The notes below the pieces were generated by a model. That model saw only the letters and a program-made list of their open reading frames with translations, searched no databases and had not been told where the DNA came from. The translations under genes were made by a program, and so were the position numbers. Shown in pieces: positions 1,738 through 38,776 of a stretch of 44,969 nucleotides of DNA; positions within the stretch are counted from its first letter, which is position 1, and each line of letters starts with the position of its first letter. This DNA is from Bdellovibrionales bacterium (GTDB taxonomy: Bacteria; Bdellovibrionota; Bdellovibrionia; Bdellovibrionales; UBA1609): positions 1 through 44,969 of the forward strand of contig JAPPLG010000029.1 in the NCBI GenBank assembly GCA_028819545.1, written 5' to 3'.

Positions 1738-2412
1738 ATGCGTTTATTGATTATTTTAATTTTTATTACTATGGAATTGGTTGGATGCGGAGGCGTCGGA
1801 TCAGGAAGAGAAGAGCGTCGTTTTAGAGACGATTACGATCGTAGAGGTAACGTTCCTGATGAAGAATTAGATGAATATATTTCAGACAGTATAGGGGGAG
1901 TGAGCGCAGTGCTTAAAAACATTGATAATTATTTAAAAAACTGCCAGTCTGCAATTCCTAATATTCCAAGAACGGAATTGGACGTTGTTTTCGGAGCAGT
2001 TGGAGTGAGTAAGTTTAACAAGTTTGCTCAAGCCAGAGAATGTCTGGAGCAAAGACTGCAGGAAGTGACAGTGCAAATCTGTCAATCAAAGGAAGATATC
2101 TATACACAATCTCAGCAATATAGAAATTTTGATAACAGAGCCGCACGTGTGCAAAATGGAGTGGATCGGATTGAAGAACTGCATCGCAGACATCAGGACT
2201 GGCTGTTGGATCAAGCAGACCGTTTTCATGACAGGGCAGACAAACATGCAGACAGCTCTTTATTAGGAAATGAATATAGAGCTTATGCAGATATCTTTGA
2301 ATCAGAAGCTTTTCATAGCTGTGCTTATGGGGATCGATTCCGCAGAGGAGGCCGCTCCTCTTATCGTAACAGCGGTTACGGCAGTTATGGCGGTTACGGC
2401 GGCAGATATTAA
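1738..2412 (+). CDS. Putative lipoprotein, first member of a tandem paralogous family (P1)
   Basis: I do not recognise a named family. The 224-residue product begins with a short hydrophobic segment and the lipobox LVGC (Cys17), so it is probably a lipoprotein. The middle region shares with the next three genes an NC at the start of a helix-rich domain, ECLEQRL, QICQSK, a VQNGVDRIEELH-like block, and a YADIFES...C ending. The last roughly 25 residues form a Gly/Tyr/Arg-rich tail (GYGSYGGYGGRY) absent from the paralogs. It lacks the N-terminal DQC motif the others carry. High predicted helix content suggests an exported helical bundle. The function is unknown. Confidence 0.75.
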   Translation: MRLLIILIFITMELVGCGGVGSGREERRFRDDYDRRGNVPDEELDEYISDSIGGVSAVLKNIDNYLKNCQSAIPNIPRTELDVVFGAVGVSKFNKFAQARECLEQRLQEVTVQICQSKEDIYTQSQQYRNFDNRAARVQNGVDRIEELHRRHQDWLLDQADRFHDRADKHADSSLLGNEYRAYADIFESEAFHSCAYGDRFRRGGRSSYRNSGYGSYGGYGGRY

Positions 2413-2436
2413 GTGCTGAGTGATTAAAATTTACTA

Positions 2437-3278
2437 AAGTCTTCATTCACAATCAGTTATTCAAATAATAATTTCTATTAACAATGCAGTTGTGTTTCTG
2501 CCTTACAAAACAGCATTATTTTCTTTCTATTTTTTAATGATTTAATTTTTTTACACTGTTATTGTTTGTGTAGAAATAATCTGTTAATTTGGGTCTTGTG
2601 CTTACAATGGCTGGGGGGCAACATGAAAAAGTTTATATGGTTTATAGTTCTCTTATGTTCATTAAATGGTTATTCTTTTGAGGATTCACATTGGGGCGAT
2701 CAATGTGCTCAATGTGACAAAAGCAGTGCAGGCTCTCAATTGCTGTTAGATATGCTGTTAGTGATCAACAGCATTCATAAGCTTATTACAGATGCTGAAA
2801 GCGAGTTGAGAAAATGTCAGGAATTGGCTTCTCACGTGAAATCAGAAGCTTTGACATCAATGGAGAGTCGCTCTTCAGTCTTTCTCGCTCAGTCTAGAGC
2901 TTGCCTTCAAGAAAAGCTTGCAGGCATAACCAAACAAATTTGTGCGGCAAAAAAAACAGCCAATCTCTATGTAAAGGAGTCAAGTGCTTTAGACCTGCAG
3001 GTTCAAACTGTTCACAGCGGTGTTGAAGTTTTGGAATACTTTCATCAGGTGTATAAAACGTGGTTGCTGGATGTAGCAGAAGTCTATAAATTGGCTGAAA
3101 ACCAAAGTTCATCAGTGAATATTTATCAGGTTTATGCAGATGTTTTTGAGCTTGAGTCTGAAGCTCAATGCAATCATTAAGTCATTTTAATTTTCTTGTT
3201 ATAGGCGTTAAGTGTTAAGTCTTCATTCACAATTCAGTTATTTAAATAATAAGTTCTATTAACAATGCAGGTGTTTCT
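2437..3278 (+). repeat. Duplicated upstream segments (2437-2499 and 3217-3278)
   Basis: Two nearly identical stretches of about 62 bases lie 780 bases apart. Both begin AAGTCTTCATTCACAAT and contain TTCTATTAACAATGCAG followed by GTGTTTCT. Each sits upstream of a paralog (P2 and P3). A second shared stretch, TTTTTACAC followed by ATTGTTTGT, lies closer to each gene. The duplication therefore covered gene plus regulatory region; the shared parts probably hold the promoters. Confidence 0.8.
2623..3180 (+). CDS. Exported cysteine-containing paralog (P2)
   Basis: This is a 185-residue secreted protein of the same family as P1. I chose the ATG at 2623 because a GGGGGG run precedes it by a few bases and the product then begins MKKFIWFIVLLCSLNGYS, a clear signal peptide. 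An upstream in-frame start would add 19 residues without a ribosome site. After the signal come DQCAQC, RKCQE, ACLQEKL, KQICAAK, a GVEVLEYFH block and a YADVFELESEAQC ending, matching the spacing of cysteines in the neighbours. The paired cysteines suggest disulfides in the envelope. Role unknown. Confidence 0.78.
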   Translation: MKKFIWFIVLLCSLNGYSFEDSHWGDQCAQCDKSSAGSQLLLDMLLVINSIHKLITDAESELRKCQELASHVKSEALTSMESRSSVFLAQSRACLQEKLAGITKQICAAKKTANLYVKESSALDLQVQTVHSGVEVLEYFHQVYKTWLLDVAEVYKLAENQSSSVNIYQVYADVFELESEAQCNH

Positions 3279-3476
3279 ATCAGATCTTAAAAAAGAATTT
3301 CTGCTTATTATAATAAGTTATTAATCACAAAAAATGTCTTTCTTTTGTCTTAGAAAGTGATATTTATTTCATTTTTATTATTTATTATGTAATTTTTACA
3401 CTTCTTTGTACATTTATTGTTTGTACAGGGAGAATATGTTAATTTGATTTCGTTTTTAATATCTTTGGAGGGCAAT

Positions 3477-4016
3477 ATGAAAAAATGTGGATGGCTTGTA
3501 GTCCTTTTTTTATCATTCAATGGGTATTCCTATCTAGGTGAAGAAGTGTCAGGTGGGGATCAGTGTGATGCTGGTAGCATAGAGGCACAAATATTAGATG
3601 CTATTGAAAATCTCAAGGAGCTTGTAACAACTACAAATAGTAGTTTGATAAACTGTTTTTCTGACAGTATGCATATTAACAACAATGTAACAAGTACATT
3701 CAGTGGGGCAACAGAGTGCCTTGAGCACAAATTACAGAATGTGGAAACTCAAATTTGCCAGACAAAAAGAGATTTGTATACGAAAATTCAGCAACAAAAG
3801 AATGATGATCAGAGTTCAAGACAGCGTGTTCAATTTGGTATGACTCTTATTGAAGATCTTCATGTAGATCATCGCACAGTATTGTTGAAGCGATCGGACT
3901 ATTGGGAGGAATTATTTGATAACAATGTGGGCAATGTATTATGGGCGGCAGAGCTTAAAGCTTATTCAGAGATTTTTAAAACAAATGCCGCTATTAGCTG
4001 TCCTGCTGGTGAATAA
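3477..4016 (+). CDS. Exported cysteine-containing paralog (P3)
   Basis: This is a 179-residue secreted protein. The ATG at 3477 is preceded by GGAGGG and starts the signal peptide MKKCGWLVVLFLSFNGYS. The mature N-terminus, YLGEEVSGGDQC, is nearly the same as in P4, so P3 and P4 are the most recent duplicates. The family cysteines follow in INCFS, ECLEHKL, QICQTK and the final SC, with the shared FGMTLIEDLHVDHR block and YSEIF near the end. No catalytic motif is visible. The upstream region repeats that of P2. Confidence 0.78.
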   Translation: MKKCGWLVVLFLSFNGYSYLGEEVSGGDQCDAGSIEAQILDAIENLKELVTTTNSSLINCFSDSMHINNNVTSTFSGATECLEHKLQNVETQICQTKRDLYTKIQQQKNDDQSSRQRVQFGMTLIEDLHVDHRTVLLKRSDYWEELFDNNVGNVLWAAELKAYSEIFKTNAAISCPAGE

Positions 4017-4134
4017 ATATAGCTGAAACTATGACTGCAGTTGTGAAGACGACGATCAACTTCAAGAAGAATTTGTAGAGTAATTTGACAAGGATGATGT
4101 GTTTATTATTTCAATGGTATCGAGAACGATCAAT

Positions 4135-4677
4135 ATGAAAACATTTGTATGGCTTATAGTTCTTTTTTTCTCTGTCAATGGATATTCTTATCTTGGTGAA
4201 GATTTGTCAGGTAGTGATCAATGCAATGTTGGAAGTGTGGACACACAAACTTTACAAGCTATTGGAAGTGTCAATGAATTTGTAAATCATGTAGATAGTG
4301 ATATGCATAATTGTATGCCAGGCAGTCTTCAAACTACATTATTGAATGACAACTTAAGTTTAAAGGATGTATTAACTCGTACTAGAGAATGTTTATTGCA
4401 AAGACTTCTGGATGTGACTCAGCAAATTTGTCAGTTTAAAAAGAACATTCGTGTGGCATCTGAGAATTGTGTAAATGTTGAGCCAGCAATTTATGAGCGC
4501 ACTCAAAAACGTCTGGCGATTATAGAAAATCTGCATGTATATTATCGAGAGTTGCTTTTGGATAGAACAGATTTTTGGAGGAGTAAAGCTGATGAATCTG
4601 ATAATCCTTTCAGGCAGAATGAATACGGGGTTTACTCGGAGATTTTTGAATCAGCGTCTCATATAAATTGTCTTTAA
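4135..4677 (+). CDS. Exported cysteine-containing paralog (P4)
   Basis: This is a 180-residue secreted protein. The chosen ATG at 4135 begins MKTFVWLIVLFFSVNGYS, aligning with the signal peptides of P2 and P3; the 12-residue upstream extension is hydrophilic and breaks that alignment. Mature features are YLGEDLSGSDQC, HNCMP, ECLLQRL, QICQFK, a KRLAIIENLHVYYRELL block and YSEIFESASHINC. It has one additional cysteine (ENC). No ribosome site is obvious. A relic of a further copy follows directly. Confidence 0.76.
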   Translation: MKTFVWLIVLFFSVNGYSYLGEDLSGSDQCNVGSVDTQTLQAIGSVNEFVNHVDSDMHNCMPGSLQTTLLNDNLSLKDVLTRTRECLLQRLLDVTQQICQFKKNIRVASENCVNVEPAIYERTQKRLAIIENLHVYYRELLLDRTDFWRSKADESDNPFRQNEYGVYSEIFESASHINCL

Positions 4678-15668: not shown

Positions 15669-16217
15669 ATGTCTAGAATAGGAAAAATGCCTGTGGTTTT
15701 AACGGAAGGGTTGGAGGTTCAAGTGGCCGACAGCAACGAAGTGTGTTTGAAAAAACAAGGCAAAGAGTTAAAGATTTTAGTTCGTCCTGAAATTGAGGTG
15801 AGCGTGGATCAAAAACAACTGACTTTGAAAAGAAAAAATGATGAGCCAAAAACAAAGGCTTTTCATGGCCTTTACAGAGCTTTAATTCAAAACGCTGTTA
15901 AGGGTTTAAGCGAAGGCTGGTCTAAAAGTTTAAAGCTCAATGGAGTTGGTTATAAAGCTTCTGTTTCCGGTCAAAAATTGGAAATTAACCTGGGCTATTC
16001 TCATCCGATTTCTATGAACATTCCTGAAGGGATTGATATTAAAGTGGAAAAACAGACACAGATTAATATTTCAGGAGCTGACCGGCAAAAGGTAGGGCAA
16101 ATATCAGCTCAACTGAGAAGCTTAAGGCCTCCGGAGCCTTACTTGGGTAAAGGAGTAAGGTATTTGGATGAAGTGATTCGCAAAAAAGCAGGTAAATCAG
16201 GGGCTGAGAAAAAATGA
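15669..16217 (+). CDS. rplF: 50S ribosomal protein L6 (uL6)
   Basis: L6 lies near the factor-binding site. The 182-residue product begins SRIGKMPVVL and has LNGVGYKASVSGQKLEINLG and RPPEPYLGKGVRYLDEV, the two diagnostic blocks. Its stop overlaps an ATG at 16214 (ATGA) that opens the inserted repeat ORF; this must once have been the rplR start. Confidence 0.97.
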   Translation: MSRIGKMPVVLTEGLEVQVADSNEVCLKKQGKELKILVRPEIEVSVDQKQLTLKRKNDEPKTKAFHGLYRALIQNAVKGLSEGWSKSLKLNGVGYKASVSGQKLEINLGYSHPISMNIPEGIDIKVEKQTQINISGADRQKVGQISAQLRSLRPPEPYLGKGVRYLDEVIRKKAGKSGAEKK

Positions 16218-16381
16218 TTAGAATTTGTAAGAAAAGGATTTGCTCAGTGGTGTCAGTTGGCACTTTAACCACTTCGCTCCTGCACAGTCAGGAATCCAGT
16301 TTTATGTACGTCATTCCGGACTTGATCCGGAATCCAGTCGTATATGTAAGATGGATCCCCGCCTTCGCGGGGATGACATAA
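16214..16381 (+). CDS. 55-residue ORF of an inserted palindromic repeat
   Basis: An ATG overlapping the rplF stop opens 55 codons ending at 16381, eleven bases before rplR. The first residues, MIRI, copy the start of rplR. The end, VIPDLIRNP...WIPAFAGMT, is the peptide that commonly results when a widespread bacterial palindromic repeat is read in one frame. The peptide is probably not functional itself, but being translated would keep ribosomes moving from rplF to rplR. Confidence 0.55.
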   Translation: MIRICKKRICSVVSVGTLTTSLLHSQESSFMYVIPDLIRNPVVYVRWIPAFAGMT

Positions 16382-16405
16382 AGAGGTAAGTAATGATTAG
16401 AATTT
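16214..16405. repeat. Palindromic repeat element flanked by a 13-bp duplication
   Basis: ATGATTAGAATTT occurs at 16214-16226 and again at 16393-16405, the true rplR start. Between them are a hairpin CATTCCGGA-CTTGA-TCCGGAATC (about 16311-16334) and CATCCCCGC-type hairpin GATCCCCGCC-TTC-GCGGGGATG (about 16353-16376). Insertion with duplication of the rplR start, about 179 bases in length, explains the arrangement. The element resembles the palindromic repeats common in alphaproteobacteria and other groups. Confidence 0.8.
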
Positions 16406-16767
16406 ATATAAAGAAAAATCAAAGTGACAGGTACAAAAAAAGAATGAAGAGTAAAGCAGTCATTCGGAAGAAAGTTTTTGGAACTGCTGAGCGTCCTCGG
16501 TTGGTTGTTTTTAGGAGTCATCGTCATATTTATGCGCAGTTGGTGGACGATACAGATCACAAAATATTGGCGGCCAGCAGTTCCTTAAAGTTCACTGAGG
16601 ATAAGAAAAGCGGGCGTGATAAAGCTGTGGATGTAGGTAAGTTGATGGCTGATCTGGCGAAGAAGAAGGGTATTAAAAAAGTTGTATTTGATCGAAACGG
16701 CTATGTTTATCATGGACGTATTCAATCTGTTGCAGAGGGGGCGAGAAAAGCCGGCTTGGTTTTTTAA
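16393..16767 (+). CDS. rplR: 50S ribosomal protein L18 (uL18)
   Basis: L18 binds 5S rRNA together with L5. The 124-residue product has [20 protein letters not shown], the RNA-binding signature, and [20 protein letters not shown] at the end. Its present ribosome site AAGAGG (16381-16386) belongs to the inserted repeat, not to rplF as elsewhere in the operon. Confidence 0.96.
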
Positions 16768-26443: not shown

Positions 26444-27589
26444 TTATTTTTGAGCTGTCTTAAATAATATAGCAGAAGTTTTTTCTCCTATATCTGAACT
26501 CAAAAGTGCGACAGCTTTTGCATACTTCTGAGTCATTGACTGCTGTGTATGTCCGAGACTGGCTTGAACAGCAGAAAGATTCTTCGTACCCATAAGAGCT
26601 ATTGTGGCAAAAGTATGCCGGCAAATATGAGTTGAACGCCAAGGTAAGTTTAATTTTTTAAAGCTATGATTAAATGCTGATTGAATAGCATTGTATTTTA
26701 AAATCTTACCTTCATTATTTGTGAAAATTACATCACTTATAGATTGCTGTTTTATTTCTTTAAGAATTTCTGTTAGCTTTTTTGGAAGCATGAGAAGTCT
26801 TGCAGATTGAACGGTTTTTGTCACATCTTCTAAATAAGGTTGTTTCGTGTGGTAATCCCAGCGTACTCTTCTTACAACTCTTGCTACTCCATTTGTTAAG
26901 TCAACAGCATCCCATTTAAGACCGCAAGCTTCGCTTATCCTAGCACCTGTAAGAAGCATAAAGGTTGCAAGTTTCCAATAAACAGGATTGCTCTTGTATT
27001 CCCTAAGTTGCTCTATCCATCTTTTGGCATCGTCTGGCTGGATAAAATGATCCGGCCTTCTAGGAATGTGAGGTTTGTATATGCAGAGTTGTTTATGTTT
27101 TTTTGTTATGGGTACATTAAAGTCTTCATTATGAAAATTTTTATACCATGTTAGAATGGTGTTTAAAAGTTTAATTTCCAACTTAAAACTATATCTTCTC
27201 TTAGATTGGACGGTTGGGTGTTTTTTTAGCCAATTGATCCATTCCACAACATGGAACCCTTTAAGCTCGGACATTTTCACTTTTGCTAATGGGCTTTTAT
27301 ATAAGTATGTAGATTGGTGTTCATATCTTTGGTAAGAAGATTGTAGTATTCGCAGTTTTGCATCTTTATAAAAATCTTCTACACAGTCTTTAAATAAAAT
27401 ACGGTCGTTTAAATTTGTTGGATTAGACCTAAACTTATATTGTTGTTTTTCATGCCATACAACTGCTTCTCTTTTTTGAGAAAAGTTTTTTACAGCAACA
27501 CGAACGCCTTTCACAAATACTTCAGCTTGATAATAAGTAATTGGTTTTTGTTGTTTTTTATTACGGTATCTTCTTTTGATTATTGCCAT
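26444..27589 (-). CDS. int: Tyrosine recombinase (integrase) of the integrative element
   Basis: This enzyme inserts and excises the element at tRNA-Pro. The 381-residue product has an N-terminal arm-binding region, a core-binding domain and the catalytic domain: TGARISE (Arg217), HICRH (His321, Arg324), SLGHTQ, and the nucleophile Tyr356 in QKYAKA. GGAGG lies seven bases before the ATG at 27589; an upstream frame extension is rejected. It overlaps the excisionase-like gene. The orientation toward the tRNA is typical of tRNA-integrating islands. Confidence 0.95.
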   Translation of the reverse strand: MAIIKRRYRNKKQQKPITYYQAEVFVKGVRVAVKNFSQKREAVVWHEKQQYKFRSNPTNLNDRILFKDCVEDFYKDAKLRILQSSYQRYEHQSTYLYKSPLAKVKMSELKGFHVVEWINWLKKHPTVQSKRRYSFKLEIKLLNTILTWYKNFHNEDFNVPITKKHKQLCIYKPHIPRRPDHFIQPDDAKRWIEQLREYKSNPVYWKLATFMLLTGARISEACGLKWDAVDLTNGVARVVRRVRWDYHTKQPYLEDVTKTVQSARLLMLPKKLTEILKEIKQQSISDVIFTNNEGKILKYNAIQSAFNHSFKKLNLPWRSTHICRHTFATIALMGTKNLSAVQASLGHTQQSMTQKYAKAVALLSSDIGEKTSAILFKTAQK

Positions 27590-27897
27590 TGTGATTCCTC
27601 CTTTTGGTTTAACCACTCCTGCAAACTCCTTTGTTGAAAAAAACGTTTCCGTCCGATACGAACAGAAGGAATTTTTCTAAGAGCTACCCAATTACGGATA
27701 GTCTGAGGAGCTAATCCGAAGATAACCGCTAATTCCTCTAATGATATTAAGTTGTCAAAGAGCAGATCTTTGCCAGATCGATTGATGGCTTTTCCATCAA
27801 CTTCTTTAAGCTTAGCTTGTTTTTTTACTCTAGACAATTCTAGAGCGTTGTTACAATTTGACAAATTTAACTGCTCTTTATCTTTATTTATTGCCAT
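27580..27897 (-). CDS. Excisionase-like helix-turn-helix protein
   Basis: The 105-residue product has a basic N-terminal half and a MerR/excisionase-type DNA-binding domain in the C-terminal half, ISLEELAVIFGLAPQTIRNW followed by KIPSVRIGRKRFF. Such proteins act as recombination directionality factors or repressors next to integrases. Its end overlaps the integrase start by ten bases, so the two are translationally coupled. Assignment to excision rather than repression is by position. Confidence 0.8.
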   Translation of the reverse strand: MAINKDKEQLNLSNCNNALELSRVKKQAKLKEVDGKAINRSGKDLLFDNLISLEELAVIFGLAPQTIRNWVALRKIPSVRIGRKRFFQQRSLQEWLNQKEESQWQ

Positions 27898-27965
27898 TTT
27901 TCATACCCTTTAAACTGAAGGAAACGACCCCTCTAATAAGAGAGGCCAAAGCCTTCTTTTGTTGC

Positions 27966-28157
27966 CTACGATTCCTGTCTATTCTTTTTTGGAGAAAGCA
28001 GATAATCGCCAGTCATATTCTGCACATCCAATTTCAGCACGTAGCCCTTCTCATTTTTTCTTGGAAAAGCTACCCCACAACGGATAAAATTCCTTTGTTC
28101 TTTACCGTCCTTGTCTGTGTACGTACTGACATTCAGTACATCTAATATTTGGTCCAT
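27966..28157 (-). CDS. Small conserved protein of conjugative elements
   Basis: This 63-residue product resembles small proteins found next to integrases and relaxase modules. It has a NFIRCGVAFPRKNEKGYVLK core, with a pattern like (K/R)-x-G-V-A-F...L-x-L-D. The role is unknown. AAGGAGG lies seven bases before the ATG, the best ribosome site of the right-hand part, which supports it as a real gene. It is the next gene after the candidate oriT region. Confidence 0.65.
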   Translation of the reverse strand: MDQILDVLNVSTYTDKDGKEQRNFIRCGVAFPRKNEKGYVLKLDVQNMTGDYLLSPKKNRQES

Positions 28158-28515
28158 AATTAAACCTCCTTATGGTTTTGTTATATTTGTTTTATGCTGA
28201 GCTTCTATTTATTTCTCACCTCCTTAGCCAGCTCAAAAAATTATCAACTGTGTCCTTTGTATCAAGTATTTACCCCTTACTCTGAGTCTTCCCTTCTGCC
28301 TACTCAAACCTAAACCCCACAACACCACACCACTACCACCAACCCCACTCACCACACACACACCACACCGAGACGTGACCACCACTACGAATCAAGATGA
28401 GGAGGGGTGGTCACGCCTCGGTGTATGTAAAAACTTTGTGTTTTCAATAGGTTGAGTGGGGTTGGAAAAAAGTGGACTACATACCCGACTACATAGGAAA
28501 AATTAAAATTTATTT
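28158..28515. other. Intergenic region with nested inverted repeats
   Basis: No gene is supported in these 358 bases. Half of it is an unusual CA/CCA-rich strand (about 28305-28369). The nested inverted repeats at 28339-28465 lie inside it; see the oriT entry. Promoters for the two flanking genes were not certain. Confidence 0.65.
28339..28465. other. Candidate origin of transfer (oriT): nested inverted repeats
   Basis: An inner pair, CACCGAGACGTGACCACC (28366-28383) and its complement (28406-28423), matches at 17 of 18 positions around a 22-base loop. An outer pair, CCAACCCCACTCA (28339-28351) with its exact complement (28453-28465), encloses it. The strand is CA-rich on the left. The position between the coupling-protein gene and the integration genes, and the absence of a T-run, favour oriT or a replication origin over a terminator. 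Confidence 0.5.
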
Positions 28516-30177
28516 TCATAAAGCCGGCCTCCAAACTTGAAATAAATCTTCTTTATGACAAGCTTTATCGATCAAAACTGCTTGGCCGGGAGATAATCTC
28601 TTAAACACATCAAATTCTATTTTCATCTCCTTTACATCCCGGATACTTCCAATGCCAGTCATCTCTTCATCCTTTTCTGCTCTTATTATTTGATAAGTTT
28701 TTTTCTGAGAAGAGAAAGTTCCTGCAACTCCAGCCCATTCTTCTACATCTTTTCCAATATCTTGGCGGAATAAAATTTTAATGGTCGTGTTGCCAATAAT
28801 CTGATTTTTAAAATCGTTATTGACTTGAGATAAATCTGAAAGCCCCTGACAGAAAAGATGTATTCCTATCCGGGCAGATCTTGCCATTTTTAAAAAATCC
28901 GCAGAATCCCATGTTACAAAGGATCCAAACTCATCTATAAAACAGGCACAAAAGTCATATGAGAAATTCTTTTGACCGGATTGGACACGACTGGAAAGCA
29001 CTTTTAAATCCTGAATGATCATTCGTCCAATTTGTCGTGAAATTTCTCCATAGCCATTTACGTTCATTTGAAAATAAGCAATTTTGTTGTTTTTCAAACA
29101 TTCTTCAAAAGAAAAAGTGTTGTTTGATTTGTTGTTACAACCAGATAAAATCTCTCTAAACTCAAGACAATTTATTGAAGAAATTTGAGCTTGCAGACCT
29201 GCTAAGTCTTTTTTGGAAATCATTTGAATTTGTTCTAAAATAGATAGTAACTCATGTACATGTGAATGTAGATTGGAGTTGGTTTCTATTGAAGAGATAT
29301 CTTCGATTAAAAATTTAATTTCGTTTGTATTGTTTAAGTAACAATCTAAAAGAGCAAAGCTTACAGGTTTGTTTAGAAACTGGAGGGCAGATAGAATTCC
29401 TCCTAAGAATAAATCAGCTTGAGCTTTATAGTAATCATGTTTAAAGCTCAACCCACCCATTAAACGAGCTTTTATCTGTTGAGCAGTTCCGTTTAAAAGG
29501 GGATTGTAGGAAATAGATTCTTCTGGAAAGGAAAGTGAGAATAAGTAAAAATCTTTTTCTCTTCCATAAAAATGAGCTTTTTGTTTCATTTCCAATATAT
29601 CTTCTCTTTCTCCTTTTGGATCGATAATAATTATTGGATGATTGTGTTTTAAAGAGTGTATCAACATTGTTTTAAGTAAGGTTGTTTTGCCTTGCCCTGT
29701 AGCTCCGGACACAATGGTATGTTGAACTCTTGACTTTATATCTAATAAAACAGGTTTCTTTGAAATGAGCGAAATGCCTAGAGGAGTATATTTTGGATTT
29801 TTTATAAGAGAGAATAATTTATGGAAAGTAAGTTTTTTATTTTTTAGATCTTCTACTGTAATTTTCTTTTGTATTGATGAATGATTAAAATATAGAAAAT
29901 ATAGATGCCTGATTGAAAAGATAAGTGTCCCTATTACAAACAACCATAAAAAATTCTCCCCATTAAAAATATGATCTTTTGTATAAGAAAAAGAGTAAAT
30001 CCAAAATCCTCCGGCAATTAAACTACAACATACAAATGAGCGGATAAAGTTTTCAAATATGGCTACCGTTTGAGAGTGGGCTTTAATTGGTAATAAAGAA
30101 AATTGAATAATATTCCAAATACCTGATATTATTTCTTCCATAATATTTTCTAAATTATTTTCTTTTTCTATAGTCAT
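28516..30177 (-). CDS. Type IV coupling protein (VirD4/TraG/TraD-like ATPase)
   Basis: This ATPase links the relaxase-DNA complex to the secretion channel. The 553-residue product has two N-terminal membrane segments (about residues 45-65 and 80-97), Walker A GATGQGKTT (from residue 158), IIIDPKGERED, Walker B CFIDEFGSF and a sensor-like block around FCQGLSDLSQ. It ends the long secretion operon and overlaps the gene upstream by 23 bases. That pairing is like MobB/MobC of plasmid CloDF13. Confidence 0.92.
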   Translation of the reverse strand: MTIEKENNLENIMEEIISGIWNIIQFSLLPIKAHSQTVAIFENFIRSFVCCSLIAGGFWIYSFSYTKDHIFNGENFLWLFVIGTLIFSIRHLYFLYFNHSSIQKKITVEDLKNKKLTFHKLFSLIKNPKYTPLGISLISKKPVLLDIKSRVQHTIVSGATGQGKTTLLKTMLIHSLKHNHPIIIIDPKGEREDILEMKQKAHFYGREKDFYLFSLSFPEESISYNPLLNGTAQQIKARLMGGLSFKHDYYKAQADLFLGGILSALQFLNKPVSFALLDCYLNNTNEIKFLIEDISSIETNSNLHSHVHELLSILEQIQMISKKDLAGLQAQISSINCLEFREILSGCNNKSNNTFSFEECLKNNKIAYFQMNVNGYGEISRQIGRMIIQDLKVLSSRVQSGQKNFSYDFCACFIDEFGSFVTWDSADFLKMARSARIGIHLFCQGLSDLSQVNNDFKNQIIGNTTIKILFRQDIGKDVEEWAGVAGTFSSQKKTYQIIRAEKDEEMTGIGSIRDVKEMKIEFDVFKRLSPGQAVLIDKACHKEDLFQVWRPAL

Positions 30178-30856
30178 TTGTTTCCTTTTCTAACCATTCT
30201 AAAAGAGGAAGCTTCCCATACTTATGAGAAATAACTTCTTCAATATTTGGATAATGAGAAATGGCGATGTAATTTCTGTAACGAAAAGTTTTTATGAGTT
30301 TTTGAATTTTCTTTATATGAATAGAAACGTATAGTACATGAGTAAAACGAGACCTTCTGTATTTGGCCATTTTAAGAAAATATCTATTTCGGCTTTTTAA
30401 GTGTAACTCCAATTCAACAGCTAAATTAAAGGAGTCTTTTTTCAGATAAAAATCAGGTAAAGGGTCATTGTTGCCGTGATATAAAGTATTTTTTAAATTT
30501 TTAATTTGATTCTCAAATATGGCCTCTGTTTTTAGAAGATTTTCCAAACGCTCTTTTAATGAAAAAAGGAAAAGTTGATGTGTCTTTTTCCATGGACTTG
30601 CTTTCACTAGACTGTATTTATTAGAGAGACTTATAATTTTTAGATTTCTTCCAATTAGTCCAGTAGAAAATCTATTTGGATTTTTCTTAAAATTTAGAGG
30701 CTCTATTAAGATGTAACCGTGTTTTTTTAATTTACTTAAACGATTGCAGGCAGAAGAGTGCGAAGAAAAGAAGTTTCTTTTAATATCATTATAAAAGCAA
30801 AAATCCTGCTTTTGAAGAACATCAATAATTAGTTTATCTCTTGTAGTTAGTCTCAT
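30155..30856 (-). CDS. Putative Replic_Relax/MOBC-like protein (candidate relaxase)
   Basis: This is the only candidate relaxase in the element. The 233-residue product starts with a winged-helix region (about residues 1-60: LIIDVLQKQDF...RLSKLKKHGYI). Then it has LPDFYLKKDSF and LAVELELHLKSRNRY, a pattern like the D...ExE...K of restriction-fold nucleases in the Replic_Relax/MOBC group. It sits before and overlaps the coupling protein gene. A regulatory protein of the winged-helix type is the alternative. Confidence 0.55.
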   Translation of the reverse strand: MRLTTRDKLIIDVLQKQDFCFYNDIKRNFFSSHSSACNRLSKLKKHGYILIEPLNFKKNPNRFSTGLIGRNLKIISLSNKYSLVKASPWKKTHQLFLFSLKERLENLLKTEAIFENQIKNLKNTLYHGNNDPLPDFYLKKDSFNLAVELELHLKSRNRYFLKMAKYRRSRFTHVLYVSIHIKKIQKLIKTFRYRNYIAISHYPNIEEVISHKYGKLPLLEWLEKETNDYRKRK

Positions 30857-30864
30857 CCATTTTC

Positions 30865-31542
30865 CTATTTTATGACGATATTTAGTATTTTTATGTCTTT
30901 AAGTTCTATGTATTGAGCAAGTTTCTTTTTCTCAGTTTCCAGGGCAGAAAGATTGTTCACTTTGTTTTGTAAATCTGTGTTCACAAAATGAATTTGAGGT
31001 GAGGAGACTTGGTCTTGTAAAGTTAAAGATAATATGGAGGGAAGGCTTTCAAAGAAGTTTAAAGTTATATCTTTAAATAAAGATTCTTTTAAATCTCCTG
31101 TTAAAAATACTGGAAAACTTTTAATCTTTTGAAGGTTATTGTTCATAATAACTTCATTAAAAGTGACTAAGGCTTTATTTGTATTTTTAACTCCTTTGAT
31201 TTTTCCTGCGATGATTCCTTTAAACGGATAAATAATAATTCCATAGACTGGAAAATCTTCATTAAAGGATGAAATCACTGAATAGGGGATATTGACTTTT
31301 AAAATAGAGCCTTTTTTAAGGCTTGAGTTTTCTTTTTCATTAAAAACTAAAAAATCTTTATCATAAGAAAAAGATTTTCTTTGAAACTTTAAAGGTGTAG
31401 TCTTTTTCTTCTTTTTTATTGGAGTTTTCTTTTTAGCTTCTCTTTTAAGCTCAAAGACCATCTCATCTTCCATACTAAAAGAATCGAATGTAAAGAAAAC
31501 AGTAAATAAGAGGATGAAAATGGTATAAAGAGAGAGGTTCAT
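30865..31542 (-). CDS. VirB10/TraB-like core-complex protein (short)
   Basis: The 225-residue product has an N-terminal hydrophobic segment and a Lys-rich linker (KKTPIKKKKKTT). Its C-terminal domain recalls VirB10/TrbI: the SSFNEDFPVYGIIIYPFKG and GIIAGKIKG blocks correspond to the SDxPG and LIPxGSxxxGxY regions of that family. Proper VirB10 proteins are about 390 residues, so this one is short. The assignment rests partly on its position after the VirB9-like gene. Confidence 0.6.
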   Translation of the reverse strand: MNLSLYTIFILLFTVFFTFDSFSMEDEMVFELKREAKKKTPIKKKKKTTPLKFQRKSFSYDKDFLVFNEKENSSLKKGSILKVNIPYSVISSFNEDFPVYGIIIYPFKGIIAGKIKGVKNTNKALVTFNEVIMNNNLQKIKSFPVFLTGDLKESLFKDITLNFFESLPSILSLTLQDQVSSPQIHFVNTDLQNKVNNLSALETEKKKLAQYIELKDIKILNIVIK

Positions 31543-32036
31543 TATCTATCCTCCCAAGAAAAGTCTAAGATTTTTCGAATGGTAAAATCTTCTCCCCTCA
31601 AGCCCCCATCATTAGGTGAGGGGGTGTTCGGGGAGGGGAATTTTACTTTAAGCGGTTTGCTAGCTATATGGCTTAGAACTTTGATATAATCATAATGGGA
31701 TTTTTTTGATGGGATGAGGCTGAAAAGAAAGACTTCTTGATTGCATTTTAAAATAAGGTTTGAAGGCTCTGATGACCATTTCTTTAAAAGAAGATGAGCT
31801 TCTGTTTGATTTAGTTTGTCAACTTCTGCTTTTATATCATTTGGGGATCCCACAAGAGCTTTTGTGATAGGGCAGGGAAGATGTAAAAGACTTATCCTTC
31901 CTGGAAATAAAAACACATTTTCTACTGTTTTTTCTGATGTAAAGATAAACTTCACACTTTCTGAGTTTGCTTTGAATAAAGCAAAAAAACATAAGAGAAA
32001 TAGAATAGCTCTATTTAACCTTAATATCCGATACAC
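31542..32036 (-). CDS. VirB9/TraK-like outer core protein (short)
   Basis: The 164-residue product has a signal peptide and a beta-rich middle (FPGRISLLHLPCPITKALVG and LILKCNQEVFLFSLIP) like the N-terminal half of VirB9/TraK. Full VirB9 is about 290 residues. The start is GTG at 32036 with GGAGG four bases before it. Near the C-terminus the residues SPNTPSPNDGGLRGE are encoded by an inserted palindromic repeat (31590-31640). The gene overlaps the VirB8-like gene by 26 bases. Confidence 0.6.
   Translation of the reverse strand: MYRILRLNRAILFLLCFFALFKANSESVKFIFTSEKTVENVFLFPGRISLLHLPCPITKALVGSPNDIKAEVDKLNQTEAHLLLKKWSSEPSNLILKCNQEVFLFSLIPSKKSHYDYIKVLSHIASKPLKVKFPSPNTPSPNDGGLRGEDFTIRKILDFSWEDR
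31583..31648. repeat. Palindromic repeat inside the VirB9-like gene
   Basis: TTCTCCCCTCAAGCCCCC and GGGGGTGTTCGGGGAGGGGAA (about 31590-31640) are complementary with mismatches; GTAAAA and TTTTAC extend the stem. Its G/C content contrasts with the surrounding AT-rich sequence, and read in frame it gives the SPNTPSPNDGGLRGE peptide typical of palindromic repeats. Confidence 0.7.
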
Positions 32037-32550
32037 TGTGCCTCCAGGGGTTTTTATAGTTTCTTTTGTTTTCAGTTAAAGAAAGTAAAATGAATTTATC
32101 AGTTTCAGTAAGAGTACCTTTTTTAAATAGGTAGTTTCTAATTTTTACTTCAAAGAAGTTTTTCTTTTGTTTTTTAATGCTTAGGATTTCAGAAGATTGG
32201 ATGACGTTTTGTTCTTTGATGTAGCTTGCCATATCTTTAAATTCATCATTTTTTTTATTCCATAAGGCATCAGTCATTAAATCTCCAGCCATAGAGATAT
32301 GCTTCCTATAACTCTTTTTATCAAAGTTAAGAGTTAAGGCTATGAAGTGTCTGATAAAGTTCATAGTTTCTACGGGAGATTTTTCCTCATTTTCTATAAT
32401 CTGATAAGAGCTGTTTGTTTTTCCAATAAGAAGGACTTGAGATTTATTTTGAAATGCTAAGAAAGTTGCAAATAAACTCCATAAGAAAAGACTTATTATA
32501 AGAAAAAAACAAATTATTTCATTTTTATAAATAAGCATTAAAAGCTTCAT
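32011..32550 (-). CDS. VirB8/TraE-like inner membrane protein
   Basis: The 179-residue product has one N-terminal transmembrane helix (about residues 10-33) and a periplasmic domain ending FFEVKIRNYLFKKGTLTETD, with a pattern like the beta-sheet of TraE/VirB8. No enzymatic motif is expected. It overlaps the VirB6-like gene by four bases. Its position between VirB6-like and VirB9-like genes supports the call. Confidence 0.7.
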   Translation of the reverse strand: MKLLMLIYKNEIICFFLIISLFLWSLFATFLAFQNKSQVLLIGKTNSSYQIIENEEKSPVETMNFIRHFIALTLNFDKKSYRKHISMAGDLMTDALWNKKNDEFKDMASYIKEQNVIQSSEILSIKKQKKNFFEVKIRNYLFKKGTLTETDKFILLSLTENKRNYKNPWRHSVSDIKVK

Positions 32551-33749
32551 GATTCAGACTCCTCTTTAGAATGAGAAATTGTATGGTCTTTTATTTGATG
32601 CTCTGTATTTTTGGATTGTGATTGTTCACTTATATTGGAGTACTCTTTTAACTCTTGGCTTTGATTATTTGTTAAGTTTTGCTCACTGTAATTTTCTATC
32701 TGATGGGATTCTTGTTTCACTTGGATATTGCTATCAGTTTGAACAGCTCCTATTTCATTATGAGTTTCTTGGCTAATAGCCTCTTCAACAAAGGTATTAT
32801 TTTCTTCAGTAATAGCAGTTAATTCTTTTATTTCTTGATCGATAATTTGCTGACTACTTTCAGCAAGCTCTATTTGTTTTTCAAGCTGTAAACCTTCTTG
32901 TTCTTTTATGGCAAAGTCTCCATCAAAACCATTTTCAGTTTGAGATAGACTAGCTTCAATTCCCTTATGATTAGTCTCTATATCTGTTTTATTTTGAATT
33001 TCTGGATTATTTAAAATACTTTCATCACAATTTCTTATATAAGAATAGGCTTGTTCTCCACCTTTATAGAGAAAGTTTCCTCCCATGTAGGAGAATTTCT
33101 TTAAATTTTGAGAAAGTGGTATTTTTGTACTTTTAGATATAAGCCATATAGGGATAAAAAGCTTAGCTAAACTAGCCCCTCCAATAATCACATTATTAGC
33201 TAAAGCATTGTCACTGACAGCCACCACATAGACAGCAAAGTTTATGGAATACCATAAAAGAGGCCAAAGGGAGACTGTAAGGAGTAAAATAAAAAATACT
33301 TTTAATACCCCATAAGCTCTAAACATGGTGCCAAAAAATAAAACATAACTTGCAAAAAACCCAAGTACAGATACGATCACTACATAGAGTCCAAAGCTTA
33401 TCCAGTAGGAGATAATTCCAAGCCAATCTACAATTCTTTTAATAGTATTTATAAATAAACCCTCTCCAAGATTGATATTTCTCCAATCTCCAAGGGATAA
33501 CTCACTTGATACAAAGTAAGGGATTTGAAGAGTTAGTTTTAAGATGTCTGTAAAAAAGAAAAGCCCTAAGAATAGAAATAATGAGTCTTTTAAAATATCT
33601 GTAAAACCATCATTTTTAAGAAGGATAAAACCAAAAGCAATTCTGATAAAAAAAGCTAGTGGAAATAACAATAAAATATAATTTCTTGTTTGATTAAAAA
33701 CTTCCACAATTTTATTAAAAATTACTATATCCATTGGAAAATCTGTCAT
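32547..33749 (-). CDS. VirB6/TrbL-like polytopic membrane protein
   Basis: This inner-membrane channel component has 400 residues. About six or seven hydrophobic segments fill residues 1-210. The last 190 residues are hydrophilic and rich in Glu, Gln, Ser and Asn (for example QESHQIENYSEQNLT), a low-complexity tail of a kind often seen in VirB6 proteins. It follows the VirB5-like gene by a 24-base gap. Confidence 0.75.
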   Translation of the reverse strand: MTDFPMDIVIFNKIVEVFNQTRNYILLLFPLAFFIRIAFGFILLKNDGFTDILKDSLFLFLGLFFFTDILKLTLQIPYFVSSELSLGDWRNINLGEGLFINTIKRIVDWLGIISYWISFGLYVVIVSVLGFFASYVLFFGTMFRAYGVLKVFFILLLTVSLWPLLWYSINFAVYVVAVSDNALANNVIIGGASLAKLFIPIWLISKSTKIPLSQNLKKFSYMGGNFLYKGGEQAYSYIRNCDESILNNPEIQNKTDIETNHKGIEASLSQTENGFDGDFAIKEQEGLQLEKQIELAESSQQIIDQEIKELTAITEENNTFVEEAISQETHNEIGAVQTDSNIQVKQESHQIENYSEQNLTNNQSQELKEYSNISEQSQSKNTEHQIKDHTISHSKEESES

Positions 33750-33773
33750 TTATAAAACCTTCTCTTTTATTTC

Positions 33774-34481
33774 TTAAAATATCCCTAAAAACTTTTTTCT
33801 TTTTTTATTTTCTTTCTTATTTTTATTTTGAAAGGGATGAAAAATTCCAAACCCTTTTCTTTTAGAATGGCGGTTAATATAGGAGTATTGTTCATTGATA
33901 AATTCTTGTTCTTTCTTTTTTCTTTCAAGAAGAACTTTTTGGCCTGCAATTTCTTTTCTTAACCTTCTAAGCTCTCTTGTTTGAGAGTCTTGAAGAAGAG
34001 CCTTAAGTGTTCTATTTGTTTCCATCTGTTCTGATGCTGTAATAGCTTCAGGACTTTTTGCTAAAGCACCGATACTCTTTATTAAGCTATGGGTTCTTCT
34101 AATATAATTTTTTACAATATCTATTTGACCTGCTAAAGAGTTTGACTCGTACTCTCTAAATTCAAAAAATTCTTTTACATCAACTCCTAGTTTTTCATAT
34201 TCATTGATGGTTTTTTGAAACTCTCTTACCTCTTTTTCATACTCCATATATTTGTTTTCAATCCCTTGAAAGTTTTCTAGATCGTCTAAAACATTGACCA
34301 TAGATTCTGCGGCCACAGCTACACCCTCAACTTGTTTTTTTGCTTCGATTACGTCAGAAAGAAAGGCATGGCTCTTTATGGAGTAAAAACAAACAAATAA
34401 TTGAACCAATAGAGCCAGCCAATTCCTTATCTGACAGTTGAAAGATTTATATTTTAGAAAACAAAATAAACGCTTAAACAT
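33774..34481 (-). CDS. VirB5/TrbJ-like exported coiled-coil protein
   Basis: The 235-residue product has a signal segment ending near SHAF. Long helices follow, with ENFQGIENKYMEYEKEVREF and RELRRLRKEIAGQKVLLERK predicted to form coiled coils, and a Lys-rich tail (NKKENKKRKKFLG). VirB5/TrbJ pilus-associated proteins share this layout. It overlaps the VirB4-like gene by eight bases. Confidence 0.65.
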   Translation of the reverse strand: MFKRLFCFLKYKSFNCQIRNWLALLVQLFVCFYSIKSHAFLSDVIEAKKQVEGVAVAAESMVNVLDDLENFQGIENKYMEYEKEVREFQKTINEYEKLGVDVKEFFEFREYESNSLAGQIDIVKNYIRRTHSLIKSIGALAKSPEAITASEQMETNRTLKALLQDSQTRELRRLRKEIAGQKVLLERKKKEQEFINEQYSYINRHSKRKGFGIFHPFQNKNKKENKKRKKFLGIF

Positions 34482-36594
34482 AGTTCATCACCTTTAAAGC
34501 TTTTTCTTCACTAATGTTTAAAATGTTTTTAAGTTTTTGAACTTTATGTAAAAAATCAGGTTCTGTATTAGAAAGAACATATTCTTCTTTTGAGAGTCTT
34601 AAAAAGCCAACCTTAGAGCCTATAGAATCTTTTAATAAAAATTGAGAAAACTCTCCCTTAACGGTTCTAAGGGTTTTTAGTTTTTGAAACTCATTTTCTG
34701 TTAAAGAAAAGGTTTCTTTAAATCTTCTTTCTTCTCCATCATAAGAAAATAAGATTTTAAATTCGCTGTTATCAATTAAAGAAGTGTCGTTATTATAAAT
34801 TAAATCTTTTGAGTTTTGGGCAAGAAGTATTAAAGAACCGTTTAGTTTTCTTACATTTTTTGAAAGAAGAGAAAATGTATTAAAACAGTTTTTTATAAAA
34901 AATGGAGTCTCATCTGAAATAAATATAAACTTCTCATTTGGATTTTTATTTAATAGTTTAAAAGAAAACTCCGCCATAATATTTGCTATGATTGCTTTAG
35001 CGACATAAGAGTTTGAAGCTGTAGAAATATTTTCAAAGTTAAAGTAAATCAGTCTGTTGTTTGCTATACTTTCTTGGTTGTTAAAGATATTTTCATTTAA
35101 ACTTCCTTTTGTCCATCTAAGAAGTTTATCAGCTCTTGGATGATCTAAGGATTTATAGAGATTATCCAGATTTTTTTCTTTTTTAGATTTTGAAAATTGA
35201 ATAAGGTTTTTTTCTAAAAGAATTTTTTCTTGTGATGGAAGAGATGATTCTTTTTCCTCTAAGAAAAGCTTTTCAATAAAGTTTCCTGTAATTTCTATTG
35301 ATTCTTTTGAATCTGTTAAGTTTTTAAGAGGATTAAGTCCACAAGGGTTTTTAATATCGAGGTTATAGGTTTTTCCAAAAAGTCTTTCTACTGTCTTTTT
35401 ATGGGAGCCTCTAACATCCACTAGAAAGATATGGGCTTTTTCATCGTGAAATAAAGATTTTGTTAAAAGGTTAGCAAAAACACTTTTTCCTTTTCCGGAT
35501 TTACCAATAATAACCCCTGTATGATTAGCATAGTCTTTTGAAAAAGGATTAATCTCATCTAGGCTTAAATCTCTTCTATGGTAAACAAGAGAGCCTTTGT
35601 CTTTTTTCTTTTCATCTAGGGATGCTCCAAATCTAAGAAAGGGGAGAAAGCATTTAAGAGTTGAGGACTTTTCTATAAGCTTATAAAGAAGGGGGCTTCC
35701 TGGACTTAAAGCTAATAAAGAGGGATAAGCTCCAAAGCTCTCACAAACCCATTCTCCAAGTGTTGTTGCTTTCTGTAGGCTTTGAGCTATATCCCTCCGC
35801 AAATACGCTTCAGAAAGCCTTTTAAGCGTTATATGAGCTTCATAGTGAAATAACTCCTCTCCTGAAAGCTCCATATCACTTAAGGCTTTTTGAGTATTTT
35901 TATACTTTTCAAAACTAACTAGACCTTTTCCCTCTGCTTCTTCTTTGGATTTTTGATGTAAGGTCTTTTCTCCTTTCACGTGAGACATTTTTTCAAATGA
36001 AATATGAACACCAAAAGGCTTTGGAATTTTTTCTAACATTAAAGCTAAAGAAGAAAGACTTAAGGGATAATTTCCGCTATTTTTAAGCTTTAAAACTCCC
36101 ATAAGATTTTTAGAGGATTTAAGGCCAAGACTTGTCACTTCTAAAGGAGTGTACAATCCATATAAATCTTTAAATGAATCTGATGAGATAGGAACAGCTT
36201 TAATTTTATTTAAAAACCCTTCATCTATACTTTCATGAATTTCTGAAAGTTTTTTTGTTAATAGATCTTCATTTTTTAAAACATCTGTTTTTAAGATTTC
36301 TTTAAAAGAAACTTTCTTTTTATGCTCAAAATGTATAAGCCCCTTTGTTTTTAAATATCCTCTTTCTTTTATTGCTTTTATTCTTTCAGATGAAAGAGAC
36401 AGTGTATCTTTTGAAAACTCTTGAAAAAGACTTAGCTTTACTCTGACATCTATTGAAAGAGATTTTAAAAAATTATCAAGTAAACTTTCAATATTATCTT
36501 CAATCTCTAAATCTAAGTTTTGAAAAGAAAAACTTTTCCCTAAAAACCCAGTAGTTGAAATCCAATAATTTTTTCTATCTTGATAACTTTTCAT
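34474..36594 (-). CDS. virB4: Type IV secretion ATPase VirB4/TraC
   Basis: VirB4 drives pilus assembly and substrate transfer. The 706-residue product has the family length. It has Walker A GKSGKGKS (residues 364-371), VDVRGSHKK, Walker B FIFISDETPFF and a TraC-like KNVRKLNGSLILLAQNS stretch. The N-terminal half is the substrate/scaffold domain. No VirB11-type second ATPase is visible in the window. Confidence 0.93.
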   Translation of the reverse strand: MKSYQDRKNYWISTTGFLGKSFSFQNLDLEIEDNIESLLDNFLKSLSIDVRVKLSLFQEFSKDTLSLSSERIKAIKERGYLKTKGLIHFEHKKKVSFKEILKTDVLKNEDLLTKKLSEIHESIDEGFLNKIKAVPISSDSFKDLYGLYTPLEVTSLGLKSSKNLMGVLKLKNSGNYPLSLSSLALMLEKIPKPFGVHISFEKMSHVKGEKTLHQKSKEEAEGKGLVSFEKYKNTQKALSDMELSGEELFHYEAHITLKRLSEAYLRRDIAQSLQKATTLGEWVCESFGAYPSLLALSPGSPLLYKLIEKSSTLKCFLPFLRFGASLDEKKKDKGSLVYHRRDLSLDEINPFSKDYANHTGVIIGKSGKGKSVFANLLTKSLFHDEKAHIFLVDVRGSHKKTVERLFGKTYNLDIKNPCGLNPLKNLTDSKESIEITGNFIEKLFLEEKESSLPSQEKILLEKNLIQFSKSKKEKNLDNLYKSLDHPRADKLLRWTKGSLNENIFNNQESIANNRLIYFNFENISTASNSYVAKAIIANIMAEFSFKLLNKNPNEKFIFISDETPFFIKNCFNTFSLLSKNVRKLNGSLILLAQNSKDLIYNNDTSLIDNSEFKILFSYDGEERRFKETFSLTENEFQKLKTLRTVKGEFSQFLLKDSIGSKVGFLRLSKEEYVLSNTEPDFLHKVQKLKNILNISEEKALKVMNYV

Positions 36595-36607
36595 AAATCT
36601 TTAACCT

Positions 36608-36874
36608 TTAAAATAAATTTCCTTTAAACAACTTGTGAAAAAGACACCAGAGGTAATCCATGATGACTCCTCTTCTATATTTCAGTCTTATGGGGATCAG
36701 AATAAGAGATAAGAAGAAAGTTAAAATGATGGATAAAATCTCAAGGCCAACTAAAGAAAACATGAGCTGAAATAAGGTATAAAAGCACATCAAAAATAAA
36801 AGATCATCCAAGGTTAAGCCAAAAAAATTTGATTTTATATTAAGAGTTTTTGATGGTTTAAAAGTTTTCAACAT
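36608..36874 (-). CDS. VirB3/TraL-like membrane protein
   Basis: The 88-residue product has two hydrophobic segments (about residues 24-40 and 45-65) and a basic loop (RLKYRRG). VirB3/TraL proteins share the length and topology. It sits between the pilin and VirB4 genes, where VirB3 is expected. Confidence 0.7.
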   Translation of the reverse strand: MLKTFKPSKTLNIKSNFFGLTLDDLLFLMCFYTLFQLMFSLVGLEILSIILTFFLSLILIPIRLKYRRGVIMDYLWCLFHKLFKGNLF

Positions 36875-36909
36875 ACATTCCTTATTTTTTTAATTACTTG
36901 GTTTTCCAG

Positions 36910-37224
36910 TTAGTTAAATGTTCTATAAAAAAGTGTAAAAATAGTGGAAGCAGCGGCAAAAACAACAGTCCCGATAATGGCAGCTGAGAGTTTTTCCATT
37001 CCAAGTTTTTTTGACCAATAAAAACAAACCCCTGCGATCATTAAAGCTAACACTCCAACCACAGCTATAATTTGTCTTATTTGATCACTTGCATTTTCAA
37101 CACTGGATAAAAAATCTCTAGCTAGAACAAAGTAGGGGAGAGAAAAAATAAGGAAGTATAAAACATTCCTTGTTTTGGTTATTATTTGGACTATTTCTTT
37201 TTTTCTTAATTTTATGTTTTTCAT
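36910..37224 (-). CDS. VirB2/TrbC-like pilin
   Basis: The 104-residue product has an N-terminal hydrophobic leader (about residues 20-35) followed by two helices, IRQIIAVVGVLALMIAGVCF and LSAAIIGTVVFAAASTIFTL. This is the layout of conjugative pilins. The cleavage site is not certain. It is the first recognisable secretion component after the two lipoprotein genes. Confidence 0.75.
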   Translation of the reverse strand: MKNIKLRKKEIVQIITKTRNVLYFLIFSLPYFVLARDFLSSVENASDQIRQIIAVVGVLALMIAGVCFYWSKKLGMEKLSAAIIGTVVFAAASTIFTLFYRTFN

Positions 37225-37265
37225 GTTTTCTCCTTTTTTAAATATTTACTTTATAAAATATCTTT

Positions 37266-37781
37266 CTAATCTACTTTAATCTTAGAGGGGGTTAGTTCGA
37301 ACATTTTGTTTTTCTTAACCAATCTATTTTTACCAATTGCTGTCCATTCACTTACAGGTTGGTTTTGTTCTAATTCAAACAAATGCCACTCTCCAAAATG
37401 AACAAAAGGCTTTATATCTTCTGGAATATCTTTTTTTATAAGATAGCTTTTTCCTCCTGTAAGATATTTTATTTTTGAGCCGTTATACATAAGCCCTAGA
37501 TCTTCTTCTAATTTAGAAAGTTTTTCTTTAAGCTCTTTAATTTTTCTTTCTTCGTTAAACATCATATAGCTTGCAAGAGATGCTAAAAGACCAACAGATG
37601 TTCCAAAAAGAAGAGCATTTTTTTCTTTAGCTTCCGGACGGCTTAGTCCGTATAAAGCTCCTCCGGCAATCCCTATAGCTGTAGAGCTATATATTTTTTC
37701 TCTACTGGTTAAGTGAAGCGTAGAACAAGATGTAAAAAGAAAGATGAAAGATAGTAAAATGAAGAAATGTTTTAATAACAT
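37266..37781 (-). CDS. Lipoprotein with glycine-zipper, possible TraV/VirB7-type
   Basis: The 171-residue product has lipobox FTSC (Cys19). A glycine-rich segment follows (TAIGIAGGALYGLSRPE), then a hydrophobic stretch (about residues 58-74) and a coiled-coil (ERKIKELKEKLSKLEEDLG). The C-terminal 70 residues are unassigned. Place and type suggest an outer-core lipoprotein, but no family signature confirms this. It overlaps the upstream collagen-like gene by ten bases. Confidence 0.6.
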   Translation of the reverse strand: MLLKHFFILLSFIFLFTSCSTLHLTSREKIYSSTAIGIAGGALYGLSRPEAKEKNALLFGTSVGLLASLASYMMFNEERKIKELKEKLSKLEEDLGLMYNGSKIKYLTGGKSYLIKKDIPEDIKPFVHFGEWHLFELEQNQPVSEWTAIGKNRLVKKNKMFELTPSKIKVD

Positions 37782-38776
37782 ATCGTATTCTCCTTTGTAG
37801 AATTGTTATTTTGTGGTTTGTTTACTGTTTGATTGTTGCTGTATAAGTGTTTGGGTTCTTCTTTGAGTTTTTCGAGACAAACTATTCCTGTTACACCGTC
37901 TTTTCCATTTAACCCTCTTCTTCCTGAACTTCCTCTATTTCCGTTTTTTGGTCGAGATAGTCTATACCTACATAATCTTTTTCTATCTGTTCCGTTTTTT
38001 CCAGCACTACCACCATCACCACCTCGACTTCCTCTACCTCCTTCAGAACTGACTCCTGGGTTTTGCTTAATCTCTGTTAAATGAAAGTCTGATAACTGAA
38101 AGGCCTTTAGATAAAAAGAACCTGAGTTTCCACCATTTTTTCCACTAAAACCTGTTAAACCTCTTTTTCCATTTCCTCCATTTTCTCCTTGTCTTGGAGC
38201 TACCATACATTTATTTGCACAGTATTCACTGACTTCAAATCCAAGAAAGCTCCATGTGTCACACAACACGCGGTAGATAGCATTTTGTCCATTTCTACCG
38301 TCTTGTCCTCTAAGACTTGTTTTTTCACTTAGAGATAGTTTTCTACTTGAAACATGCCCTCCGTTTTCTCCGTTTAAAATAAGTTTGAGTTCTCCTTTAG
38401 CAGTATTTGTTTCAATGAGAGTGCTTCCTCCATTTTTTCCATCTTCGTTTTTTCTTGCTTTTTCGTTTTCTTCAAAATTTTGAATAATAGAATGATTTGA
38501 AATGAACTCATCAGCTTTAATAAGTAGATCGTATTCAAAGGTTTTAATTGTCACCATATTTAAAATAACTCTTTTGTTTTGTATTATAGTATTTTCTGTT
38601 AGTTCCATGTTTTCTTCGATAAGAGTTATCTCGTCTTCTAAAAATTCATCTTTATTTTTTGGAATCTCTTTTATGGTTTCTTCAGTTAGACTTTCAACTT
38701 CTTCATTTTTAAAAGGTAAATCGTTGCAAGCAGTTAAAATTAGGAAATAAAAAAATAAAAAATTTGAAACTTTCAT
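37772..38776 (-). CDS. Collagen-like lipoprotein with Gly-X-Y tracts
   Basis: The 334-residue product has a lipobox LTAC (Cys17) and several interrupted collagen-like tracts, for example GENGGNGKRGLTGFSGKNGG, GGRGSRGGDGGSAGKNG and GNRGSSGRRGLNGKDG. Four or more cysteines lie between the tracts (YCANKC, VCLEK). I infer a surface appendage or adhesin linked to the conjugation machinery. AAAGGAGG lies before the ATG. It is the first gene of the long secretion operon. Confidence 0.75.
   Translation of the reverse strand: MKVSNFLFFYFLILTACNDLPFKNEEVESLTEETIKEIPKNKDEFLEDEITLIEENMELTENTIIQNKRVILNMVTIKTFEYDLLIKADEFISNHSIIQNFEENEKARKNEDGKNGGSTLIETNTAKGELKLILNGENGGHVSSRKLSLSEKTSLRGQDGRNGQNAIYRVLCDTWSFLGFEVSEYCANKCMVAPRQGENGGNGKRGLTGFSGKNGGNSGSFYLKAFQLSDFHLTEIKQNPGVSSEGGRGSRGGDGGSAGKNGTDRKRLCRYRLSRPKNGNRGSSGRRGLNGKDGVTGIVCLEKLKEEPKHLYSNNQTVNKPQNNNSTKENTICY

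Follow-up and report, generated by a model that had tools for sequence, protein, structure and literature searches.

REPs are typically located between genes or downstream of them. Those of the CGTC type are defined as palindromes of 20-40 bp that carry a CGTC or TGTC tag at one end and a CCA tail, and it was concluded that they have no dedicated transposase (PMC3733652). Their class CGTC-1 takes in Rickettsia RPE-6 and Neisseria dRS3, while CGTC-4 takes in RPE-4 (PMC3733652). In E. coli, according to the citation of Liang et al. 2015 in PMC12306157, REPs lying no more than 15 nt from a stop codon affect the translation of the upstream gene.

We analyzed a stretch of 44,969 nt (the window) of contig JAPPLG010000029.1 from a Bdellovibrionales bacterium (GCA_028819545.1), whose draft genome of 1.45 Mb is in 35 contigs and 95% complete. 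Between rplF and rplR lie about 150 bp of inserted palindromes, bracketed by two copies of AATGATTAGAATTT. This REP cluster, together with the 14-base copied gene start, is a genuine insertion between two essential ribosomal-protein genes. The cluster is a known kind of repeat; the copied gene start is unusual. The features of the junction are:

15669-16217, + strand: rplF (L6), C-terminus KSGAEKK, with its stop TGA (16215-16217) inside the left repeat copy
16213-16229, + strand: left copy of the rplR start, AATGATTAGAATTTGTA, 14 positions exact and 16 of 17 identical to the right copy
16214-16381, + strand: 55-codon open frame across the insert, closed by a TAA at 16379-16381 that is probably the ancestral rplF stop
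16239-16299, + strand: unit A, a dispersed palindromic repeat (GCTCAG...GTTGGCAC...) joined to half a CGTC-like hairpin
16309-16337, + strand: unit B, a CGTC-tagged REP (CGTC, stem of 8, loop of 5, CCAG tail)
16352-16378, - strand: unit C, a TGTC-tagged REP in the opposite orientation (stem of 8, loop of 4, CCA tail)
16379-16392, + strand: TAA AGAGGTAAGTA, probably the native stop of rplF with the Shine-Dalgarno and spacer of rplR, outside the repeat
16392-16408, + strand: right copy, the functional rplR start, AATGATTAGAATTTATA
16393-16767, + strand: rplR (L18), intact, beginning with the ATG at 16393, N-terminus MIRI-IKK matching the sister genus

The 175 nt between the two genes stand out: the other junctions measured in the ribosomal cluster nearly all range from -14 to +41 nt, and the one other large gap, adk-rpsM, was taken as a whole and may contain small genes. 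The insert is palindromic and its fold is more stable than those of shuffled sequences (z -2.8); the predicted local fold leaves the rplR ribosome site single-stranded. No promoter- or terminator-like sites were recognized in the insert. A search of Rfam over the region gave only a sub-threshold match to FtrB on the minus strand (24 bits versus a cut-off of 66), which was not accepted.

Units B and C, read directly from the sequence, have the tag, the stem and the CCA tail of CGTC REPs. With the CGTC-1 and CGTC-2 classes (Di Nocera et al. 2013, PMC3733652) they share the tag, an 8-bp stem with AT at its base, a loop of 4 or 5 and the CCA tail, as well as pairing in opposite orientation, a site between co-directional genes and the lack of any dedicated transposase found. 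In contrast to those classes, a palindromic unit of a non-CGTC kind (unit A) is joined in front, and a 14-nt copy of the start of the next gene accompanies the cluster. The family is dispersed and of high copy number: a DNA search found 49 places in the genome, the rplF-rplR site included, and a CGTC REP pattern found 66 matches, compared with 0 for a reversed control. As for other CGTC REPs, no dedicated RAYT was detected; a search of the 95%-complete draft for a Y1 transposase (PF01797) gave no match.

A reading of the sequence alone (the sequence-only reading) had likened the insert to Rickettsia-type palindromic elements that spread inside genes. The likeness holds at the level of the superfamily, since CGTC-1 includes RPE-6, and the Rickettsia RPE-6 and RPE-4 repeats (CGTC-1 and CGTC-4) also share with this locus an open reading through the repeat and a small genome. 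The spread inside genes is not supported. Unlike a coding RPE, inserted in frame within a protein-coding gene, the insert is intergenic, with rplF stopping at 16217 and rplR starting at 16393 in another frame, and the family is predominantly extragenic (19 of 21 other classified clusters lie outside ORFs of at least 90 aa). With the E. coli post-stop REPs, as cited in PMC12306157, the locus shares hairpins soon after the stop codon of an operon gene, but here the palindromic units start ∼21 nt past the rplF stop, farther than the limit of 15 nt given in that citation.

In a tree of five ribosomal proteins, genus g13 is the sister of this genome (support 1.000). Matches to the REP pattern numbered 61, 83 and 21 in the three g13 genomes and 13 in a genome of a different genus, compared with 0-2 in the rest of the family. 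The 13 CGTC REPs belong to G046, a genome of the small-genome genus g14; its three congeners have none, which suggests a recent gain. Unit A belongs to a second family of dispersed palindromes, whose core is CGCTCAGCAGTTTCGGTTGGCACCTGCACTGCTTCG and which has no relation to the CGTC tag; copies of its type were seen at L003, L005, L006, L007, L021, L026, L027, L028 and L096, sometimes joined to a CGTC-like half.

The copied gene start had been described as a 13-base repeat, ATGATTAGAATTT, present over the rplF stop (16214-16226) and again as the rplR start (16393-16405), 179 bases apart from start to start. Both copies were found at these positions, and the match extends to 14 exact bases beginning at 16213 and 16392, or 16 of 17 with the flanks. 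When random pairs of segments 170 apart were compared, the longest common word was nearly always 11 nt or less; 14 nt was reached in 3 of 4000 samples, probably by drawing this same rplR-start pair. Elsewhere in the genome, the 17-nt pattern is not matched exactly; it occurs once with 1 mismatch and at seven places with 2. The 14-mer was also considered as a dispersed repeat in its own right, and none of its places at 1 or 2 mismatches was taken as a copy.

The relatives compared are of other genera (best contig match 54% identity; none is a congener). In G054, a genome of g13, there is a single rplR start, as the sequence-only reading expected of an empty site; rplF ends in KSGGEK followed by TAA, and 4 nt without a ribosome site separate it from rplR. 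No relative examined has two copies. Since the junction of the sister genus is single-copy, the two-copy state is the derived one in this lineage. Dispersed units and a single-copy junction in the sister genus together bear out an insertion of palindromic repeats of a mobile type.

We next consider the right-hand end of the insert, where the sequence-only reading had the repeat bring in its own AAGAGG ribosome site (16381-16386). The comparison did not support this proposal. The arrangement TAA-N0-4-GAGGT-N4-7-start lies between rplF and rplR in 14 of 30 relatives, and GAGGT is found 4-7 nt upstream of rplR in 18 of 30; the junction here, TAA-AGAGGTAAGTA-ATG (16379-16395), fits the motif exactly. 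The 14 nt at 16379-16392 follow no other copy of unit C in the genome. Because they match the motif of the relatives and are absent after other unit C copies, they are best read as the native stop, site and spacer. Thus rplR has very probably kept its own ribosome-binding site, and the TAA that closes the 55-codon frame is probably the old rplF stop. Deletion of 16212-16378 in silico restores GAG AAA TAA AGAGGTAAGTA ATG, and rplF then ends in -EK, as in g13 (-GGEK). Two caveats apply. In the window, a TAA lies within 4 nt upstream of 22% of GAGGT sites, so that the match at the junction could be due to chance if the site was selected anew. Also, the sister genome G054 does not have the TAA-GAGGT-start motif.

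The explanation we favor, with a probability of about 0.6, is that a REP cluster was inserted at the rplF-rplR junction together with a copied rplR start, while the native rplR site was kept. Three REP-type units, one composite and an inverted CGTC pair, would have arrived in one event or in close succession, along with 14 to 17 nt copied from the rplR start. The geometry that fits best would place ∼167 nt between the last rplF sense codon and the old TAA stop, so that the junction before insertion would have read ...GAGAAATAAAGAGGTAAGTAATGATTAG. On this account rplF would now terminate at the TGA inside the copied start, and rplR would retain its own Shine-Dalgarno site and start. The copied start would be better explained by templated copying, through break repair or replication slippage, than by a regular target-site duplication; we favor such copying during the insertion, although the step itself is inferred. 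Most likely the insert is a tolerated, non-adaptive repeat rather than a new device, its neutrality also being inferred. The cluster lies inside a highly conserved operon of a small genome, and its presence suggests that an essential gene pair can absorb much sequence if the downstream ribosome site survives.

The nearest competitor is a true target-site duplication, which we consider unlikely but far from negligible. Here rplR would formerly have overlapped rplF by ATGA, with an ancestral junction ...GAGAAAAAATGATTAGAATTTATA that had the overlap and was without AGAGGT; the insertion would have duplicated 14 nt, and the right end would have supplied, or later evolved, AAGAGG. This is the simplest, one-step account of the copied start, the left copy being the ancestral one, and 4-nt ATGA or GTGA overlaps are common in the operon (rplD, rpmC, rpsQ, rpmD and rplQ). 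The G054 junction is likewise tight, with its ribosome site inside rplF; however, other insertions have altered the g13 junctions so heavily that they say little about the ancestor. The account also leaves rplF one residue longer than that of g13, and the 14 nt on the right, which it must derive from the insertion or from later change, lie outside the repeat family and match the native motif of 14 of the 30 relatives.

The other REP clusters argue against it further. In the flanks of 38 of them the longest common word was 8 nt or less, which is the chance level, compared with 14 here. A target-site-duplication rule for these REPs was therefore rejected, and the constant-length duplication at most copies that marks duplication-making MITEs was not found. 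It follows that the 14-nt copy is peculiar to the rplF-rplR event. More generally, a copied start beside a repeat says little in favor of target-site duplication where relatives conserve the native junction.

A second alternative concerns the 55-codon frame. As the sequence-only reading stated, it runs from 16214 to 16381 and its TAA ends 11 bases upstream of the rplR ATG. Under either geometry, the frame could be a selected, translated bridge that keeps rplF and rplR coupled in translation: the duplicated start would have been re-purposed, so that ribosomes leaving rplF enter the REP-encoded frame and are handed to the native rplR site. If true, the repeat would be a translated coupling bridge within an essential operon. 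The layout suits this: the start of the frame overlaps the rplF stop as ATGA, and its end falls on the ribosome site of rplR, 11 nt upstream of that gene; ribosomes that had translated the 55 codons could reinitiate at rplR. However, the insert has three forward frames, and two of them contain hardly any stops, the second being open except for stops at its ends. The paucity of stops in REP units accounts for the open frame, whose openness is no evidence of translation. RPE domain profiles are expected among NCBIfam entries, and a search of NCBIfam and Pfam with the three insert reading frames found nothing; the 55-aa frame had no match up to E 10. The frame is absent from all relatives compared, and rplR has its own ribosome site. 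We regard selection for a bridge as improbable; translation of the 55 codons is nevertheless possible, and it is probably dispensable for rplR expression.

Slightly less probable still is a history of two events, in which an older short tandem duplication arose at the rplR start, REPs then entered between the copies, and the left copy was partly lost. The TAAAGA present on both sides of the right copy could have mediated slippage, but this history requires an extra deletion and no intermediate is known. An assembly artefact at the repeat is very improbable: REPs do break or misjoin assemblies and this genome is in 35 contigs, but rplF and rplR are expected neighbors and the rest of the operon is intact and in order.

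The g13 genomes have changes of their own in this operon. In G012 (L034), rplR lies upstream of rplF and a lipoprotein-like ORF precedes rpsE, an arrangement that may be a repeat-induced misassembly. In G055 (L091), an ORF of similar lipoprotein-like type separates rpsH from rplF, and half a REP and leader copies lie between rplF and rplR. The disruption of the rplF-rplR region in the sister genus is independent of that described here.

The leader is a repeat of 45-50 nt in g13, AAGGAG-hairpin-AARTAAAAAT-ATG, that terminates in the start codons of many genes (loci L091, L113-L123 and L154-L167 in genomes G055, G012 and G054). It precedes rplF, rplR, rpsE, rplB, rpsH and others, as well as accC-, glmS-, sufC-, secD- and rph-like genes, the latter named from translations only. 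A covariance model found 25, 13 and 6 copies in three g13 genomes and 0 in the seven other family genomes searched, this one included. The hairpin shows covariation, with 22 double-change cells; this number was reached in 0 of 500 shuffles, and sliding the partners left 0-1. The model to which the alignment was fitted already contained the outer stem, which makes the inner stem the more independent test. The leader looks like a spreading translation-initiation cassette or the regulon of a leader-binding factor, and it seems more novel than the rplF-rplR insert.

Two further regions of the window were noted from translations only. At 26444-40800, an integrase-like gene precedes genes for VirD4-like and VirB4-like ATPases and for small membrane proteins on the same strand; judging by this gene content, the region looks like an integrated conjugative element adjoining the ribosomal cluster. 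At 1738-4677 there are four tandem, apparently paralogous ORFs for secreted proteins with similarly spaced cysteines.
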